Of a stretch of DNA of 13,641 nt, positions 1,405 to 9,805 are shown piece by piece. The stretch comes from Streptomyces katrae. GTDB taxonomy: Bacteria; Actinomycetota; Actinomycetes; Streptomycetales; Streptomycetaceae. How positions within the stretch are numbered: the first letter of the stretch is position 1; each line of letters opens with the position of its first letter. The stretch lies in contig NZ_JZWV01000566.1 of assembly GCF_000966975.1 (NCBI RefSeq), forward strand, positions 1-13,641. Reading direction: 5' to 3'. Position numbers and translations under genes: made by a program. The notes under the pieces are model-generated. The model searched no databases. It had not been told where the DNA came from and saw only the letters and a list, made by a program, of their open reading frames with translations.

Positions 1405-1485
1405 AGGGCATCGACCGCACAGGTGACGATACGTACCAGCCTGGAGGCTCAAGGTGACGCGCATCAGCAGCTGCGGAGGGCGGTC

Positions 1486-2097
1486 ATGACTTCCGTCCTC
1501 GTCTGCGACGACTCCCCGCTTGCCCGAGAGGCGCTCCGTCGCGCGGTTGCCACCGTGCCCGGCGTCGAGCGTGTGACGACGGCCGCCAACGGGGAGGAAG
1601 TCCTCCGCCGCTGGGGTGCCGACCGGTCCGACCTGATTCTGATGGACGTACGGATGCCCGGGCTCGGGGGTGTCGAGACCGTCCGCCGGCTCCTGTCCGC
1701 CGACCCGGGTGCCCGCATCATCATGCTGACGGTCGCCGAGGACCTGGACGGCGTGGCCCTCGCGGTCGCCGCCGGCGCCCGTGGCTACCTGCACAAGGAC
1801 GCCTCGCGCGCCGAACTGCGGGCCACGGTCACCCAGGCGCTCGCCGACCCGACCTGGCGGCTCGCCCCGCGCCGGCTGCGCTCGGCCGAGATGGGCGCCG
1901 CGCCCACCCTCACCGCGCGCGAGATCCAGGTGCTGGAGGGCATGAGCCACGGCCGTTCCAACGCGGAGATCGGGCGCGAGCTCTTCCTCTCCGAGGACAC
2001 GGTCAAGACGCACGCCCGCAGGCTCTTCAAGAAGCTCGGCGCCTCGGACCGGGCGCACGCCGTGGCGCTCGGCTTCCGCTGGGGTCTCGTCCGCTGA
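1486..2097 (+). CDS. bldM: BldM, orphan response regulator of aerial development
   Basis: 203-residue protein with a receiver domain at about 1-120 and a LuxR/NarL-type helix-turn-helix at about 138-198 (TAREIQVLEGMSHGRSNAEIG). Receiver residues are intact: acidic pair D8/D9, phospho-acceptor position D54 (in LILMDVRMPG), T82 and K104. BldM is known as an atypical regulator needed for aerial hyphae and sporulation. It acts as a homodimer at one promoter class and as a heterodimer with WhiI at another, and phosphorylation is not needed for function. No kinase gene is adjacent, consistent with an orphan regulator. The ATG at 1486 has GGAGGG five bases upstream and gives the family length of 203; the in-frame GTG at 1423 has no comparable site. 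Confidence 0.97.
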   Translation: MTSVLVCDDSPLAREALRRAVATVPGVERVTTAANGEEVLRRWGADRSDLILMDVRMPGLGGVETVRRLLSADPGARIIMLTVAEDLDGVALAVAAGARGYLHKDASRAELRATVTQALADPTWRLAPRRLRSAEMGAAPTLTAREIQVLEGMSHGRSNAEIGRELFLSEDTVKTHARRLFKKLGASDRAHAVALGFRWGLVR

Positions 2098-2133
2098 CCG
2101 CGGGAGCGGCGGCCTCCGGCTGACCGGAGCGGT

Positions 2134-2156
2134 CCCGTCCGCCGATGGCGGGCGGG
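2134..2156 (+). terminator. Hairpin terminator after bldM
   Basis: CCCGTCCGCC (2134-2143) and GGCGGGCGGG (2147-2156) form a 10-bp stem with one G-U wobble and a three-base GAT loop, 37 bp after the bldM stop. No U tract follows, which is common for actinobacterial terminators. A smaller stem (CTCCGG/CCGGAG, 2114-2129) lies just upstream. Confidence 0.55.
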
Positions 2157-2262
2157 GCGGCAGGCCCTCTGGGGGCGGCGGGGCGGGAAAGTCCCGTCGC
2201 GACCGGTGTCCCGTCGGGGATTGACGGGGCACAATCCGGGGGACGTGTCGCTTCGGGCGCGA

Positions 2263-2294
2263 TGCCGCATCCTTGATGGTGTGCCGCATTCTTG
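2263..2294 (+). promoter_or_regulatory. Direct repeat upstream of the ECF sigma gene
   Basis: TGCCGCATCCTTG (2263-2275) and TGCCGCATTCTTG (2282-2294) match at 12 of 13 positions with a 19-bp period, close to two helical turns. They lie 59-90 bp before the chosen start of the sigma-factor gene, in otherwise non-coding DNA. The placement suits tandem binding of an activator or repressor. No -10/-35 pair could be assigned with confidence. Confidence 0.4.
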
Positions 2295-2352
2295 GAGAGG
2301 TCGAGTCCTCGGGGACGACGATTCGGGCCGAGCGGAGGGGAGGGCGCAGAAG

Positions 2353-3072
2353 ATGGGTTCCGGCGCACCCGCTCATAACGCTTCGATGCACAACACGGAC
2401 CGCGATGCCACGAACGCTCCGGCGCCAAGGCACCATGGATCGATGCGCGACGACGAGGCCCTGGGGTCACCCCCGGCCGCAGGCCCCACCGGCGCCGCCA
2501 AAGGCGGCAACGCCGGGGCCGTCAGCGCGCTCGTACGCCGTGCGGTCGACGGCGACGAGCAGGCCACGCACGATCTGCTGGCCTTCGTGCACCCCCTCGC
2601 CCTCCGCTACTGCCGCACGCGGCTGTCGCGGCTGCCGGGTGACGCCCGCCACTTCGTCGAGGACCTCGCGCAGGAGGTGTGCGTCGCGGTCCTGATGGCG
2701 CTGCCCCGCTACCGGGACACCGGGCGCCCCTTCGAGGCCTTCGTCTTCGCCATCGCCGCCCACAAGGTCGCCGACCTCCAGCGGGCCGCCATGCGGCACC
2801 CGGGGAGCACCGCCGTCCCGTCCGACGAGATGCCGGAGCGGCCGGACGACTCGCTCGGACCGGAGGAGCGGGCGCTGCTCAGCAGCGACGCCGCCTGGGC
2901 CAAGAAGCTGCTGGCCAACCTGCCGGAGAACCAGCGCGAGCTGCTCGTCCTGCGGGTGGCCGTCGGGCTGACCGCGGAGGAGACCGGCCAGATGCTCGGC
3001 ATGTCCCCGGGCGCGGTGCGGGTCGCGCAGCACCGTGCGCTCAGCCGGCTGCGCGCGCTCGCGGAGCAGTGA
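2353..3072 (+). CDS. shbA: ECF-type RNA polymerase sigma factor, ShbA/SigD-like
   Basis: 239-residue sigma-70 family protein. Region 2 spans about 76-146 (core RNA polymerase binding and -10 recognition, [20 protein letters not shown]). A linker follows at 147-183, then region 4 at about 185-235 with a helix-turn-helix around [25 protein letters not shown]. The first 55 residues are low-complexity and poorly conserved in appearance. The ATG at 2353 has a strong GGAGGGGAGGG 8 bases upstream; ATG 2443 (209 residues) is a possible alternative without a clear ribosome site. Position between bldM and guaB matches ShbA of Streptomyces, reported to drive transcription of the principal sigma gene hrdB, and parallels sigD near guaB2/guaB3 in Mycobacterium tuberculosis. 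No anti-sigma gene is adjacent. The gene symbol rests on synteny plus family. Confidence 0.85.
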
Positions 3073-4725: not shown

Positions 4726-4759
4726 GAAGGGCGGGCCGGGGTGACCGGGCCCGCCCTTC
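4726..4759 (+). terminator. Strong terminator after guaB
   Basis: GAAGGGCGGGCC (4726-4737) and GGCCCGCCCTTC (4748-4759) form a perfect 12-bp stem with a 10-base loop, starting 13 bp after the guaB stop. The descending arm ends in CCCTTC rather than a long U tract. Confidence 0.8.
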
Positions 4760-4914
4760 GGCCGTCTGCGGGTGACCGGCGCTGCGCGCCGCGGACCCCG
4801 CGCCTCAATCGCCGGCGAGGCTGGATTCCGGCGTCCGTACAGCGGTCACCGGAACGCGGGTCCCCGGGGTTCGGGGATACTGGACGGGCAGACCCAGAGG
4901 AAAGGCCACCACAC

Positions 4915-6039
4915 GTGACTGAGATCGAGATCGGGCGCGGCAAGCGCGGCCGCCGGGCGTACGCCTTCGACGACATCGCCATCGTCCCCAGCCGGCGTAC
5001 GCGGGACCCGAAGGAGGTCTCGATCGCCTGGCAGATCGACGCGTACCGCTTCGAGCTCCCCTTCCTGGCCGCCCCCATGGACTCCGTGGTCTCCCCGCAG
5101 ACCGCCATCCGCATCGGCGAGCTCGGCGGCCTCGGCGTGCTGAACCTCGAGGGCCTGTGGACCCGCTACGAGGACCCGCAGCCGCTGCTCGACGAGATCG
5201 CGGAGCTGGACGAGGAGGCCGCCACCCGCCGCCTCCAGGAGATCTACGCCGCGCCGATCCAGGCCGACCTGATCGGGCAGCGCATCAAGGAGGTGCGCGA
5301 CTCGGGCGTCGTCACCGCCGCCGCGCTCTCCCCGCAGCGCACCGCCCAGTTCTCCAAGGCCGTCGTGGACGCGGGCGTCGACATCTTCGTCATCCGCGGC
5401 ACCACCGTGTCGGCCGAGCACGTCTCGGGCGCGGCCGAGCCGCTGAACCTCAAGCAGTTCATCTACGAGCTCGACGTCCCGGTCATCGTCGGCGGCTGCG
5501 CCACCTACACGGCGGCCCTGCACCTGATGCGCACCGGCGCCGCGGGCGTCCTCGTCGGCTTCGGCGGCGGCGCCGCGCACACCACGCGCAACGTGCTCGG
5601 CATCCAGGTCCCGATGGCCACGGCCGTCGCGGACGTGGCCGCGGCCCGCCGCGACTACATGGACGAGTCCGGCGGCCGCTACGTGCACGTCATCGCCGAC
5701 GGCGGCGTGGGCTGGTCCGGCGACCTGCCGAAGGCCATCGCCTGCGGTGCGGACGCCGTGATGATGGGCTCCCCGCTGGCCCGTGCCACCGACGCGCCCG
5801 GCAAGGGCCACCACTGGGGCATGGAGGCCGTCCACGAGGACGTGCCGCGCGGCAAGAAGGTCAACCTCGGCACGGTCGGCACGACCGAGGAGATCCTCAC
5901 CGGCCCGTCGCACACCCCGGACGGCTCGATGAACCTGTTCGGCGCCCTGCGCCGCTCGATGGCCACGACCGGCTACAGCGAGCTCAAGGAGTTCCAGCGG
6001 GTCGAGGTCACGGTCGCGGACTCCCAGCACCGCCGCTGA
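4915..6039 (+). CDS. guaB3: GuaB3-family IMP dehydrogenase-related protein
   Basis: 374-residue TIM-barrel paralogue of IMPDH, without CBS modules. The N-terminal signature (AYAFDDIAIVPSRRTRDP) and the barrel strands align with guaB, but the active-site loop reads GGGAAHTTRN. His222 sits where IMPDH has its catalytic Cys (GSICTTR). The flap is much shortened and lacks the Arg-Tyr pair. The nucleotide-phosphate loop (DGGVGWSGD) is kept, so purine nucleotide binding is plausible while IMP oxidation by the normal mechanism is not. Actinobacterial GuaB3 has, as far as I know, no settled function. GTG 4915 is chosen because AGAGGAAAGG precedes it by 9 bases and the protein then starts at the conserved region; the frame is open back to 4741 through the terminator. 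Adjacent guaB2-guaB3 order is conserved in mycobacteria. Confidence 0.95.
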   Translation: MTEIEIGRGKRGRRAYAFDDIAIVPSRRTRDPKEVSIAWQIDAYRFELPFLAAPMDSVVSPQTAIRIGELGGLGVLNLEGLWTRYEDPQPLLDEIAELDEEAATRRLQEIYAAPIQADLIGQRIKEVRDSGVVTAAALSPQRTAQFSKAVVDAGVDIFVIRGTTVSAEHVSGAAEPLNLKQFIYELDVPVIVGGCATYTAALHLMRTGAAGVLVGFGGGAAHTTRNVLGIQVPMATAVADVAAARRDYMDESGGRYVHVIADGGVGWSGDLPKAIACGADAVMMGSPLARATDAPGKGHHWGMEAVHEDVPRGKKVNLGTVGTTEEILTGPSHTPDGSMNLFGALRRSMATTGYSELKEFQRVEVTVADSQHRR

Positions 6040-6056
6040 CCCGGCTTTCCGTACGA

Positions 6057-6102
6057 ACGCCGGAGGGCCGGCACCCCGAGCGGGGTGCCGGCCCTCCGGC
6101 GT
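6057..6102. terminator. Bidirectional terminator between guaB3 and the small membrane protein gene
   Basis: A perfect 21-bp stem (6057-6077 with 6082-6102) closes on a four-base GAGC loop. It lies 17 bp after the guaB3 stop and 7 bp past the end of the opposing gene, so it can serve both convergent transcripts. Outer arms include CGCCGGAGGGCC and GGCCCTCCGGCG. Confidence 0.88.
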
Positions 6103-6109
6103 GTGCGGA

Positions 6110-6457
6110 TCAGGCGGTCTTGCGGCCGACCTGGAAGGCCGCGTAGCCGCCGATGGCGAGGAAGAGGAAGGTCAGCGGGTCCACGCCTTCCTTCCAGCTG
6201 TCGATCACCTCGGAGGTGCGGTTGGTCAGCACGTCCACGACGCTCTCGGAGAGCTGGTCGGCGCCGTCCAGGGCGATGCCGAACAGCTGGCCGGCGAGCA
6301 CGGAGACGACGGAGACCAGGGCGGCGACGACCGGCAGGACGGCGTTGCGCCCGCCGGCCTTGGCGGCGGCGAAGCCGACGTTGCCCTTGCGGGCCGGGGC
6401 CTGGGCGGGGGCCGGGGTGTAGGACGAGGGCGCGGGCGGCTGGAAGTTCTGGCTCAT
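6110..6457 (-). CDS. Small two-helix membrane protein of unknown function
   Basis: 115 residues; not a family I recognise. The first 30 or so residues are Pro/Ala/Gln-rich and polar (MSQNFQPPAPSS...), with basic residues (ARKG) before a hydrophobic segment at about 39-63 (VLPVVAALVSVVSVLAGQLFG). A central amphipathic stretch at 64-92 (D, E, S rich) precedes a second hydrophobic segment at about 93-108 (PLTFLFLAIGGYAAFQVG), ending RKTA. The layout suggests both termini in the cytoplasm with a short external loop. The ATG at 6457 is preceded by a G-rich run (seven G) rather than a canonical site. Codon bias fits a real gene, and the strong terminator sits directly at its 3' end. Its promoter region holds the repeats at 6482-6522. 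Role unknown. Confidence 0.75.
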   Translation of the reverse strand: MSQNFQPPAPSSYTPAPAQAPARKGNVGFAAAKAGGRNAVLPVVAALVSVVSVLAGQLFGIALDGADQLSESVVDVLTNRTSEVIDSWKEGVDPLTFLFLAIGGYAAFQVGRKTA

Positions 6458-6481
6458 GCGGGAAATCCCCCCCAGGGATTC

Positions 6482-6522
6482 GGGCGCACGTGTGCCCGGC
6501 GGGCATAAGTGCGAGATAAGTG
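6482..6522. promoter_or_regulatory. Operator-like repeats upstream of the small membrane protein gene
   Basis: GGGCGCACGTGTGCCC (6482-6497) is a 16-bp palindrome around CACGTG with one mismatched pair, 25-40 bp upstream of the start at 6457. Next to it, ATAAGTG occurs twice (6505-6511 and 6516-6522) with an 11-bp period, one helical turn, in an AT-richer patch. Read on the minus strand these are CACTTAT repeats where a promoter would be expected. No clear -10/-35 pair was identified. Confidence 0.4.
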
Positions 6523-6562
6523 ACGCCGCAGGCTAGCAGGGGACTGCGGCATTCCTGGAGGG

Positions 6563-6591
6563 GATTTCGGTCGGATGATCGAACCGGAATC
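6563..6591 (-). terminator. Candidate terminator after the dehydrogenase-like gene
   Basis: An imperfect inverted repeat (GATTTCGGTCG at 6563-6573 against CGAACCGGAATC at 6580-6591) with one mismatch and one bulge encloses a GATGAT loop. It lies 25 bp beyond the stop of the minus-strand gene. Modest stem and no U run. Confidence 0.4.
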
Positions 6592-6615
6592 GGGCCGTGA
6601 CCTGCGGCGGGCCGG

Positions 6616-7845
6616 TCAGAGGCGGTGGGCCGCGCCCGCCGGGCTGGCGCCGCGGGTGTCGAGGAGGAGCTGGGCCTTCACCGCCAGGCCCTGCATGTCG
6701 TACGTGCGGTGGTGCTGGAGCAGGATCGTCAGGTCGGCGTTGGCGGCGGCCTCGTACAGGGAGTCGGCGCGCGGGACGGGCTGGTCGCGGACCCGCCAGC
6801 CCGAGATGTACGGGTCGTGGTAGCTGATCAGGGCGCCCAGGTCGAGGAGGCGGCTGGCGATCTCTCCGGCGGGCGAGCCCTCCTGGTCGGCGAGGTCGGG
6901 CTTGTAGGTGACGCCCAGCAGGAGGACGCGGGCGCCGCGGGCGGACTTGCCGTGCTCGTTCAGCAGGGTGGCGCAGCGCTGGATGACGTATTGCGGCATC
7001 CGGCCGTTGATCTCCTGCGCCAGGCCGACCATGCGCAGGGGGTGGCCGGGGGTGCGGGTGGTGTGGGGGAGGTAGTTCGGGTCCAGCGGGACGCCGTGGC
7101 CGCCGACGCCGGGGCCGGGGCGGAAGGCCTGGAAGCCGTACGGCTTGGTCTCGGCGCACCGGATGACGTCCCACAGGTCCACGCCGAGGTCGTGGCAGAG
7201 GACCGCCATCTCGTTCATGAGGGCGATGTTCACGTGCCGGTAGTTGGTTTCGAGGAGCTGGACGGTCTCGGCCTCGCGCAGGCCGCGGGCGCGGACGACC
7301 TTCTCGGTGAGGCGGGCGTAGAAGGCGTGCGCGGACTCGGTGCAGGCGGGGGTGAGGCCGCCGATGACCTTGGGGGTGTTGGCGATGGTGTGGGTGCGGT
7401 TGCCGGGGTCGAGGCGGCTGGGGGAGTAGGCCAGGTGGAAGTCGCGGCCGGCGCGCAGGCCGGAGCCCTCTTCGAGGATGGGCCGCAGGTAGTCCTCGGT
7501 GACCCCGGGGTGGGCGGCGGATTCCAGGATCACGGTGGTGTGCGGGCGCAGCCGGGCGGCGAGGGTGCGGCCGGCCGCGCCGACGGCTCCGAGGTCGAGC
7601 GCCCGGTCGGCGCCGAGCTGGGTGGGGGCGCAGATGACGGCGGTGCGGACGCGGCCGAGTTCGGCGGGGTTGGTGGTGACGCGGAAGCCGGCCGCCGACA
7701 TCCGGCGGATCTCGGCGGCGGTGAGGGGGCTGTCCGTGGCGGGGCCGCTGTCGTAGCCGACGGTCTCGATCCCGGCGGCGACGGCCGCCTGGGCGAGGGG
7801 GAGGCCGAGGTGGCCGAGTCCGATGACGGCGAGGTCTGCGGGCAT
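6616..7845 (-). CDS. Nucleotide-sugar dehydrogenase homologue, probably catalytically inactive
   Basis: 409-residue member of the UDP-glucose/UDP-ManNAc (WecC-like) dehydrogenase family. It has an N-terminal Rossmann domain with GLGHLGLP (9-16) and D32, a central helical domain, and a C-terminal UDP-binding domain (LLLGVTYKPD). The fold signatures are clear, yet the chemistry residues are not. The catalytic Cys of GGHC-x-P-x-D is Gly251 (GGHGVPLDP). The family Lys and Asn of KLLEN are Gln196 and Thr200 (QLLETN). The Glu of SPER is Ser143 (SPSRLDPGN). The Thr pair of ESTxxPG is Ala110/Ala111. Only Asp255 remains. Oxidation to a uronate is therefore unlikely; it may bind NAD or a nucleotide sugar. 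The ATG at 7845 follows AGGGA and places the Rossmann motif normally; ATG 7878 lacks a site. Monocistronic, divergent from glpD. Confidence 0.88.
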   Translation of the reverse strand: MPADLAVIGLGHLGLPLAQAAVAAGIETVGYDSGPATDSPLTAAEIRRMSAAGFRVTTNPAELGRVRTAVICAPTQLGADRALDLGAVGAAGRTLAARLRPHTTVILESAAHPGVTEDYLRPILEEGSGLRAGRDFHLAYSPSRLDPGNRTHTIANTPKVIGGLTPACTESAHAFYARLTEKVVRARGLREAETVQLLETNYRHVNIALMNEMAVLCHDLGVDLWDVIRCAETKPYGFQAFRPGPGVGGHGVPLDPNYLPHTTRTPGHPLRMVGLAQEINGRMPQYVIQRCATLLNEHGKSARGARVLLLGVTYKPDLADQEGSPAGEIASRLLDLGALISYHDPYISGWRVRDQPVPRADSLYEAAANADLTILLQHHRTYDMQGLAVKAQLLLDTRGASPAGAAHRL

Positions 7846-7901
7846 GGGGGGCCGTCCCTTCCCTTCCCTGGCATGCATGAGGGGGCGGTGCGCGCAAGTC
7901 C

Positions 7902-7910
7902 TGTGGACGA
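7902..7910 (-). promoter_or_regulatory. DnaA-box-like nonamer
   Basis: On the minus strand it reads TCGTCCACA, fitting the Streptomyces DnaA-box pattern (T/C)(T/C)(G/A/C)TCCACA. It lies 57 bp upstream of the dehydrogenase-like gene start and faces away from the second box at 7987-7995. Confidence 0.45.
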
Positions 7911-7942
7911 ATGGAGCTGGCGCAATGTCAGACTAGGCGTAT

Positions 7943-7958
7943 ATATGACAGATATGTC
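7943..7958. promoter_or_regulatory. AT-rich dyad and 9-bp direct repeat in the divergent region
   Basis: The only AT-rich island of this intergenic region (about 7939-7957, GTATATATGACAGATATGT). It holds the inverted repeat GACA-N4-TGTC (7947-7958) and overlapping direct repeats ATATGAC/ATATGTC with a 9-bp period (7943, 7952). It is centrally placed between the two divergent genes, as for a shared operator or promoter. No definite -10/-35 was assigned. The rest of 7846-8098 shows no coding potential. Confidence 0.4.
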
Positions 7959-7986
7959 GCATTCTGGGGTTGTGGCCATCCCTGTG

Positions 7987-7995
7987 TTGTCCACA
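7987..7995 (+). promoter_or_regulatory. Consensus Streptomyces DnaA box
   Basis: TTGTCCACA is exactly the preferred Streptomyces DnaA box. It is embedded in the inverted repeat CTGTG-N5-CACAG (7982-7996), which leaves open that it is instead an operator for another protein. It lies 104 bp upstream of the glpD start. Confidence 0.55.
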
Positions 7996-8098
7996 GCCGG
8001 TGGCTGATGTCGGTGCGGCCGGTCAGAATCGGAAAACGGGAGATGTGAGCGGGATCACCCGCATCGAGCGGGTTCGCCCGCACCAACGGGAGGCAGCC

Positions 8099-9805
8099 GT
8101 GAGGACAGCGACACTGGGGCCCGCGCAGCGCGCGGAGGCCCTCGCCGGGATGGCCGAGCGGGAACTGGACGTGCTGGTCGTCGGCGCGGGCGTGGTCGGC
8201 GCGGGCACCGCGCTCGACGCGGTGACCAGAGGCCTGTCGACCGGGCTGGTGGAGGCGCGCGACTGGGCGTCGGGGACGTCGAGCCGCTCCAGCAAGCTCA
8301 TCCACGGCGGCCTGCGCTATCTGGAGATGCTCGACTTCGCCCTGGTCCGCGAGGCGCTCAAGGAGCGCGGGCTGCTGCTGGAGCGGCTCGCCCCGCACCT
8401 GGTGAAGCCGGTGCCCTTCCTGTACCCGCTCCAGCACAAGGTCTGGGAGCGGTTCTACGCGGGCTCGGGCGTCGCCCTGTACGACGCGATGTCGGTCTCC
8501 AGCGGGCACGGGCGCGGCCTGCCCGCGCACCGGCACCTGACGCGCAAGCGGGCGCTGCGGATCGCGCCGGCGCTGCGCAAGGACGCCCTGGTGGGCGCCC
8601 TGCAGTACTACGACGCCCAGATGGACGACGCCCGGTACGTGACCACGCTGGTCCGGACGGCCGCCGCGTACGGGGCGCAGTGCGCCAACCGGGCGAGGGT
8701 GGTCGGCTTCCTGCGCGAGGGCGAACGGGTGGTCGGGGCCCGGGTGCAGGACGTGGAGGGCGGCGGCGAGTACGAGATCCGCGCCAAGCAGGTGGTGAAC
8801 GCGACCGGGGTGTGGACGGACGACACCCAGGCGCTGATCGGCGAGCGCGGGCAGTTCCACGTACGGGCGTCCAAGGGCATCCACCTCGTGGTCCCGAAGG
8901 ACCGGATCCACTCCAACAGCGGATTGATCCTGCGGACCGAGAAGTCGGTGCTGTTCGTCATCCCGTGGGGGCGGCACTGGATCGTGGGCACCACGGACAC
9001 GGACTGGGACCTGGACAAGGCGCACCCGGCGGCGTCGAGCGCCGACATCGACTACCTGCTGGAGCACGTGAACTCGGTGCTGGCGGTGCCGCTGACCCGG
9101 GACGACGTCCAGGGCGTCTACGCGGGCCTGCGGCCGCTGCTGGCGGGGGAGTCCGACGCCACGAGCAAGCTCTCCCGCGAGCACACGGTGGCCCATCCGG
9201 TGCCGGGGCTGGTGGTGGTGGCCGGCGGCAAGTACACGACGTACCGGGTCATGGCCAAGGACGCCGTCGACGAAGCGGTGCACGGCCTGGACCAGCGGGT
9301 GGCCCAGTGCGTCACGGAGGACATCCCGCTGGTGGGCGCCGAGGGCTACCGGGCCCTGTGGAACGGCCGGGCCCGCATCGCCGCGCGGACGGGCCTGCAT
9401 GCGGTGCGGGTCGAGCACCTGCTGAACCGGTACGGGTCCCTGACGGAGGAACTGCTCGAACTGATCGCGGCCGACCCGGCGCTGGGGGAGCCGGTGACCG
9501 GGGCGGAGGACTACCTCCGGGCGGAGATCGTCTACGCCGCTTCGCACGAGGGGGCCCGGCACCTGGACGACGTGCTGACGCGGCGGACCCGGATCTCGAT
9601 CGAGACCTTCGACCGGGGGACCCGCTCGGCGCGCGAATGCGCGGAACTGGTGGCTCCGGTGCTGGGCTGGGACAAGCGGCAGATCGAGAACGAAGTGGAG
9701 CACTACGAGAAGCGGGTCCAGGCCGAGCGTGAATCGCAGCGCCAGCCGGACGACCAGACGGCCGACGCGGCCCGGCTGGGGGCGCCCGACATCGTGCCGC
9801 TGTAA
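8099..9805 (+). CDS. glpD: Aerobic glycerol-3-phosphate dehydrogenase
   Basis: 568-residue FAD-dependent enzyme oxidising sn-glycerol 3-phosphate to dihydroxyacetone phosphate, passing electrons to the quinone pool at the membrane. The dinucleotide-binding motif (VVGAGVVGAGTALDA, about 27-41) and the GlpD signature SSKLIHGGLRYLE (64-76) are present. Further on come the FAD/substrate-domain motifs (NATGVWTDD, GTTDTDWD, GLRPLL, GGKYTTYR) and the C-terminal helical domain. Length is normal. The GTG at 8099 has GGGAGG five bases upstream and yields the usual start (VRTATLGPAQ); the frame is open back to 7970 through the DnaA-box region, which is not coding. No glycerol kinase or facilitator gene is adjacent, so this is a stand-alone copy. 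It ends in a long hairpin terminator. Confidence 0.97.
   Translation: MRTATLGPAQRAEALAGMAERELDVLVVGAGVVGAGTALDAVTRGLSTGLVEARDWASGTSSRSSKLIHGGLRYLEMLDFALVREALKERGLLLERLAPHLVKPVPFLYPLQHKVWERFYAGSGVALYDAMSVSSGHGRGLPAHRHLTRKRALRIAPALRKDALVGALQYYDAQMDDARYVTTLVRTAAAYGAQCANRARVVGFLREGERVVGARVQDVEGGGEYEIRAKQVVNATGVWTDDTQALIGERGQFHVRASKGIHLVVPKDRIHSNSGLILRTEKSVLFVIPWGRHWIVGTTDTDWDLDKAHPAASSADIDYLLEHVNSVLAVPLTRDDVQGVYAGLRPLLAGESDATSKLSREHTVAHPVPGLVVVAGGKYTTYRVMAKDAVDEAVHGLDQRVAQCVTEDIPLVGAEGYRALWNGRARIAARTGLHAVRVEHLLNRYGSLTEELLELIAADPALGEPVTGAEDYLRAEIVYAASHEGARHLDDVLTRRTRISIETFDRGTRSARECAELVAPVLGWDKRQIENEVEHYEKRVQAERESQRQPDDQTADAARLGAPDIVPL

Follow-up and report, generated by a model that had tools for sequence, protein, structure and literature searches.

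Is a gene that encodes a complete nucleotide-sugar dehydrogenase (NSDH) fold without the catalytic residues of the family a damaged copy, an enzyme of unusual make-up, or a protein kept for something other than catalysis? The question is raised by a gene in the window analysed here, a 13,641-nt stretch of Streptomyces katrae contig NZ_JZWV01000566.1 (assembly GCF_000966975.1). A sequence-only reading had proposed a maintained pseudoenzyme, perhaps a sugar-nucleotide or NAD sensor, or an enzyme with new chemistry. Here we report an analysis of its orthologues, more distant relatives and genomic neighbourhood, by which the gene is very probably one member of a clade-wide pseudoenzyme of Streptomyces and near genera, predicted to have no dehydrogenase activity.

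Protein architecture and catalytic residues

The gene occupies positions 6616..7845 on the minus strand, with its ATG at 7845 and its stop codon at 6616. The frame, described as intact by the sequence-only reading, is indeed open over 409 codons plus the stop (409 aa), with GC contents of 0.74, 0.51 and 0.98 at codon positions 1, 2 and 3. A purine-rich GGGAAGGGAAGGGA stretch is located 5' of the ATG, and the N-terminus MPADLA is common to the orthologues. The protein matches the TIGR03026 nucleotide sugar dehydrogenase model at 315.6 bits (cut-off 189.8), and three NSDH Pfam domains, all above their cut-offs, give it the three-domain architecture of the family across its full length. The predicted fold is the full and intact NSDH fold, according to a good structure model built from 66 sequences; an earlier model from 24 sequences was poor (pLDDT 64.2) and was set aside. 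Model confidence is lowest at residues 251-270 (block means of 62 and 56), and this weak loop was not counted as evidence.

For comparison, we used 241 orthologues (at least 68% identity, identical proteins counted once) and 38 relatives of 40-56% identity, the latter picked by identity under 0.6 irrespective of their residues. The entries L005 and L007 correspond to the window itself. Alignments of the window protein with 4r16, Cap5O, CalS8 and the 38 relatives place the five proposed substitutions as claimed. In the N-terminal NAD-binding (Rossmann) domain (about residues 1-180; 7306..7845, minus strand), A110-A111 and S143 stand in place of Thr-Thr and Glu, and the GxGxxG motif is kept as described, with G9 and G14 present in 241 and G11 in 237 of the 241 orthologues. 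In the central domain (residues 190-280; 7006..7278, minus strand), Q196, T200-N201 and G251 replace Lys, Asn-Thr and Cys, and D255 and K234 are retained. The C-terminal domain (UDP-binding in active members; residues 308-399; 6649..6924, minus strand) carries E322 where all 38 relatives have the Arg of a RESP motif, a sixth invariant residue. The Cys, Lys, Asn, Glu and Thr expected of an active NSDH are thus all absent from it.

The losses are common across the orthologues, which rules out a strain-specific mutation. All six residues are present in 38/38 relatives, whereas among the 241 orthologues Glu143 is lost in 241, Cys251 and Arg322 in 240 each, Asn200 in 239, Thr110 in 220 and Lys196 in 123; the catalytic Cys of the GGxCxxxD motif therefore survives in 1/241 orthologues against 38/38 relatives. 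None of the six residues is retained in 119 orthologues, one in 104, two in 16, three in one and four in one. Lys196 is still present in 118/241, and Gln196 is, as judged from these proteins, a lineage-specific detail. At positions 200-201 (window 7243-7248), the N-T of the relatives has become T-N in the orthologues (T200 in 236/241, N201 in 238/241) and is constant thereafter. The family catalytic Asp (Asp280 of the human enzyme) is matched by D255, which is retained in 238/241 orthologues, as expected of a catalytically active NSDH. Among the 54 alignment columns invariant in the 38 relatives, nine drop below 90% in the orthologues, including five of the six catalytic ones (hypergeometric p = 2e-4). 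Two orthologues, L156 (genome G525) and L135, are gapped at the former substrate loop with the frame still open, and in L156 a gap is also found near the DPGN motif; these gaps look like a pocket being trimmed.

Distribution, order of losses and selection

The gene lies between a guaB3-like IMP dehydrogenase-family gene (4741..6039, plus strand; ORF coordinates with a provisional start) and a divergently oriented glpD-like gene for an FAD-dependent glycerol-3-phosphate dehydrogenase (7970..9805, plus strand; ORF coordinates, likely start at 8099 or 8150). In the 80 named loci, guaB3 adjoins the pseudoenzyme gene in 80 and glpD is on its other side in 79, both on the opposite strand; the lone locus without glpD (L122) ends before that gene. 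Orthologues collected at this junction have the same losses as the window protein. With guaB3 and glpD as neighbours, a polysaccharide cluster at the site is unsupported. The guaB3 match of genome G396 (L187) has one reported in-frame TGA. Response-regulator-like and sigma-factor-like genes at 1423-3072 (plus strand), upstream of guaB2, accompany the junction in the majority of the 80 named loci; we take them to resemble BldM and ShbA of Streptomyces. In positions 5900-8400, a promoter scan detected nothing resembling a sigma-70 site; its single terminator-like hit, on the plus strand, is close to what chance would give.

At 6110-6457 on the minus strand, a small ORF encodes 115 aa that include a hydrophobic stretch and match no Pfam family; it has a tblastn match (1e-8) in 40/80 named loci and an omega of 0.12 (23 sequences). 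A homologue is found in the L189 junction, which has no pseudoenzyme gene, and by eye also in L190. The small ORF is therefore probably an independent gene, and an operon or functional pair with the pseudoenzyme gene is unsupported.

Matches at E<=1e-150 were found in 198/297 genomes of the family, in 9/17 genera, and in 238/246 genomes of the same genus. A phylum-wide scan returned matches at E<=1e-60 in 159/396 genomes, with identities of at most 57% outside the genus among the matches listed. The best 120 database proteins are 73-96% identical, those with organism names coming from Streptomyces or Streptoverticillium, and a second protein search added members named, among others, Wenjunlia, Actinacidiphila and Streptantibioticus. 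In eight genomes of eight family genera that lack the gene, guaB3 is followed by glpD after about 0.1-0.25 kb in four (L188, L191, L193, L194), the two are 2.3 and 1.1 kb apart with putative other ORFs in between in L192 and L195, and no glpD lies within reach of guaB3 in L189 and L190. The sequences of these junctions fit a gain in one ancestor, a direction that we infer, with loss elsewhere as the alternative.

All eight same-genus genomes below the E<=1e-150 threshold carry guaB3 and a match, none less than 59% identical. Two (G712 and G819) have full-length, divergent copies, 62% identical, that have the common losses except for Lys and Thr; in these copies, which adjoin guaB3 (L200 and L199, respectively), the otherwise kept Asp255 is replaced by Asn. 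Contig ends cut two further copies (G725, G890), three others (G833, G872, G887) are split into pieces in different frames, and the match in G690 spans residues 1-296 only, with guaB3 about 8.5 kb off. The readable residues of the eight copies have the same losses, the exceptions being four copies with Lys, two with Thr and one with Arg322. The gene thus seems dispensable in a few lines, unless the four broken or truncated copies (G833, G872, G887 and G690, out of 246 genomes) are assembly errors. No internal stops were found among the matches listed in the main genome scans.

In a tree of 50 orthologues and 38 relatives, from which L177-L179 were left out, the orthologues form one clade (SH-aLRT 100) nested among sequences with the full residue set. 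Its first branches are L155, whose protein is identical to that of W. vitaminophila, and L152, followed by L149. On a tree built without the catalytic columns, the number of kept/lost changes is 11 for Lys196, nine for Thr110, three for D255, two each for Cys251, Asn200 and Arg322, and one for Glu143. Residue identity changes 15-20 times at positions 110, 143, 251 and 322, 14 times at 196, and three times at 200 and at 255 on the 88-row tree. A further 86 proteins near the basal branch, two of them also within the 241, were tallied separately: none of the six residues is kept in one, one in 54, two in 23, three in three, four in four and five in one, and by residue Lys is retained in 81, Thr in 32, Cys and Asn in six each, Arg in four and Glu in one. 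The closest to the ancestral state is P0123, named Streptomyces capparidis, in which Glu alone is lost. To judge from these proteins, the losses were stepwise and Glu was likely lost first; a strict Glu-first order is contradicted by P0177, which keeps Glu and lacks Asn, Cys and Arg. Partial residue sets occur only in such basal members, of about 70% identity, and Lys196 in about half of the clade, so that close relatives with Cys, Lys, Asn and Glu, by which the sequence-only reading would have been overturned, did not appear.

Purifying selection, which that reading had also anticipated, was borne out in three samplings, with an omega of 0.019 for 38 close relatives and 0.038 for 27 named loci (both GY), and 0.119 for a diverse set under the MG model, a value not directly comparable with those from GY. 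The corresponding values are 0.014 and 0.022 for guaB3, 0.020 and 0.025 for glpD, and 0.039 and 0.042 for two groups of relatives that retain all the residues. All omegas are rough, with quick trees and, in the deeper sets, synonymous sites that have probably come close to saturation. The low omega and the 238/246 strong matches rule out a decaying pseudogene as the general account. More telling than the omega values are the site rates: positions Thr110, Glu143, Lys196, Cys251 and Arg322 rank between the 84th and 95th rate percentiles in the orthologues and between the 1st and 6th in the relatives. Intermediate percentiles at Asn200 (52nd in orthologues, 2nd in relatives), D255 (53rd, 5th), H250 (50th, 2nd) and G11 (65th, 23rd) point to some loosening beyond the classic residues. 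The T-N pair at 200-201 is itself constrained, with position 200 at the 52nd percentile, and a new function of the pocket is therefore conceivable. Clade-wide loss of the catalytic motif at the junction, together with open frames, purifying selection and an intact modelled fold, supports a maintained pseudoenzyme.

Possible function and alternative explanations

The orthologues retain R144, R203, N206, F241, G246, G248 and G249 in 241/241, K234 in 240, K315 in 238 and H250 in 231, and T200, N201, C230 and E232 are fixed in 97-100%. In human UDP-glucose dehydrogenase (UGDH), the UDP-sugar is wrapped by chain 265-280, and Arg260 extends across the dimer (PMC3184952); by analogy, the nucleotide pocket appears to be largely kept and the sugar-oxidation end abandoned. 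The former suggestion is limited by the NAD contacts Asp32 (present in 215/241) and Thr75 (217/241), lost in 26 and 24 orthologues, about a tenth each. The overall charge has shifted as well: the orthologues are less acidic, with a net charge of +0.5 (sd 1.8) versus -14.4 (sd 5.0) in the relatives, and have several fixed arginines, signals that are both confounded by shared ancestry.

The proposed scenario would start with the arrival of a WbpA-like gene (UDP-HexNAc 6-dehydrogenase type) in the guaB3-glpD junction of the ancestor of Streptomyces and near genera. Loss of the residues would have been stepwise, probably beginning with Glu and going on to Cys, Asn, Arg and Thr, and Lys would still be disappearing in separate lines. 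The protein would have been retained for a binding function, its dinucleotide fold, GxGxxG motif and most of the putative nucleotide-pocket residues being kept. A dimer may bind NAD(H) and/or a UDP-nucleotide without turnover, and its altered surface may regulate or scaffold a partner macromolecule. We infer inactivity, ligand binding and partner alike, and we put this mechanism forward tentatively, as the likeliest of those considered. Still more speculative, and rather doubtful as a whole, is the idea that the clade represents the first described NSDH pseudoenzyme branch and acts as a metabolite gauge of NAD redox state or UDP-sugar supply, with dinucleotide and UDP pockets kept and an arginine-bearing surface acting on a partner, perhaps linked to the purine and glycerol-phosphate steps of guaB3 and glpD.

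Among the alternatives, an enzyme re-purposed for other NAD-dependent chemistry, through D255, H250 or the fixed T200-N201 and E232, is improbable. Such a role could draw on the conservation of these residues and of C230, and migrated catalytic residues are described for other families in a pseudoenzyme review (PMC10211241). Against it, residues have switched 14-20 times at each of the former Thr, Glu, Lys, Cys and Arg sites, which evolve at the high rates given above, the former substrate loop is gapped in L156 and L135, and D255 is missing from L199, L200 and L156. New chemistry at the old catalytic positions, the other option of the sequence-only reading, is disfavoured because these positions vary between lineages. 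A somewhat smaller chance is given to a hetero-oligomer subunit that tunes an active NSDH in its own cell; this would be one form of the pseudoenzyme reading, and the odds of the two overlap. Family members form dimers or hexamers with cross-subunit substrate contacts, according to PMC3184952, and our own tentative alignment equates the retained K234 with Arg260 of the human enzyme. A second homologue at E<=1e-70 was found in 8/13 genomes carrying the gene and not in the other five (G402, G406, G482, G497 and G509). The window genome has this sole match at E<=1e-60 and no near relative with the full set, and of its other PF03721 hits, the two with resolved motifs, L001 and L003, resemble UGDH, with an identity of about 25-30%.

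We consider a slowly decaying relic without function very unlikely, even though the catalytic residues are gone, some members have gaps in the former loop and the four same-genus copies described above are broken or truncated; it is opposed by an omega far below 1, by the absence of internal stops among the matches listed and by full-strength matches in 238/246 same-genus genomes. The least credible alternative is a still-active UDP-sugar 6-dehydrogenase with unusual residues, which would agree with database names such as nucleotide sugar dehydrogenase or UDP-GlcNAc dehydrogenase and with the Cys, Lys, Asn and Thr retained in some basal members; against it, five catalytic positions and the RESP Arg have been lost jointly, and the human UGDH mutant C276A fails to carry the reaction through from UDP-glucose (PMC3184952). 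According to that paper, C276A can still oxidise the aldehyde intermediate, so that Cys loss alone is no proof of inactivity; C276S accumulates a covalent adduct, and mutation of Lys220 cuts function strongly, not completely.

If the pseudoenzyme reading is right, metabolic models of Streptomyces that rely on the database names (nucleotide-sugar, UDP-GlcNAc or UDP-glucose/GDP-mannose dehydrogenase) would carry an unlikely reaction, and those basal members that retain three to five of the six residues would show intermediate steps on the way from an enzyme to a non-enzyme. Both the order of losses and the reason for retention are directly testable in model streptomycetes.

Comparison with known systems

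A literature search, mostly outside subscription journals, showed among the results listed neither an NSDH-family pseudoenzyme nor any non-catalytic role for this gene. Nothing was found on SCO4773, a tentative locus number, and the accessible parts of papers on neighbouring SCO numbers held nothing on the pseudoenzyme gene; SCO4772 is given as a transposase in one published table, an entry for which no link to the window was found.

The most similar proteins with a full residue set are Actinomycetota proteins of 54-56% identity (L164, L165, L174 and L175), which, to judge from their motifs, are putative WbpA-like UDP-HexNAc 6-dehydrogenases. They resemble the pseudoenzyme in full length, three domains and tree nesting, and the SPxRxDPGN, TKPFGFQAFRP and PGVGGH motif neighbourhoods are common to both, but in these relatives all six residues (Thr, Glu, Lys, Asn, Cys, Arg) are present. 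Neither guaB3 nor glpD was found in the examined flanks of L174-L179 (4.7 kb only for L177). At 27-28% identity, the Pyrococcus horikoshii UDP-ManNAc dehydrogenase (4r16) and Cap5O (3ojl) likewise have the catalytic set intact. The human UDP-glucose dehydrogenase mutants T131A (3itk) and E161Q (3khu) carry single engineered changes, in contrast to the natural joint loss of at least five residues in the pseudoenzyme. In the maintained pseudoenzymes of other families described in PMC10211241, the catalytic motif has likewise been lost and the fold kept.
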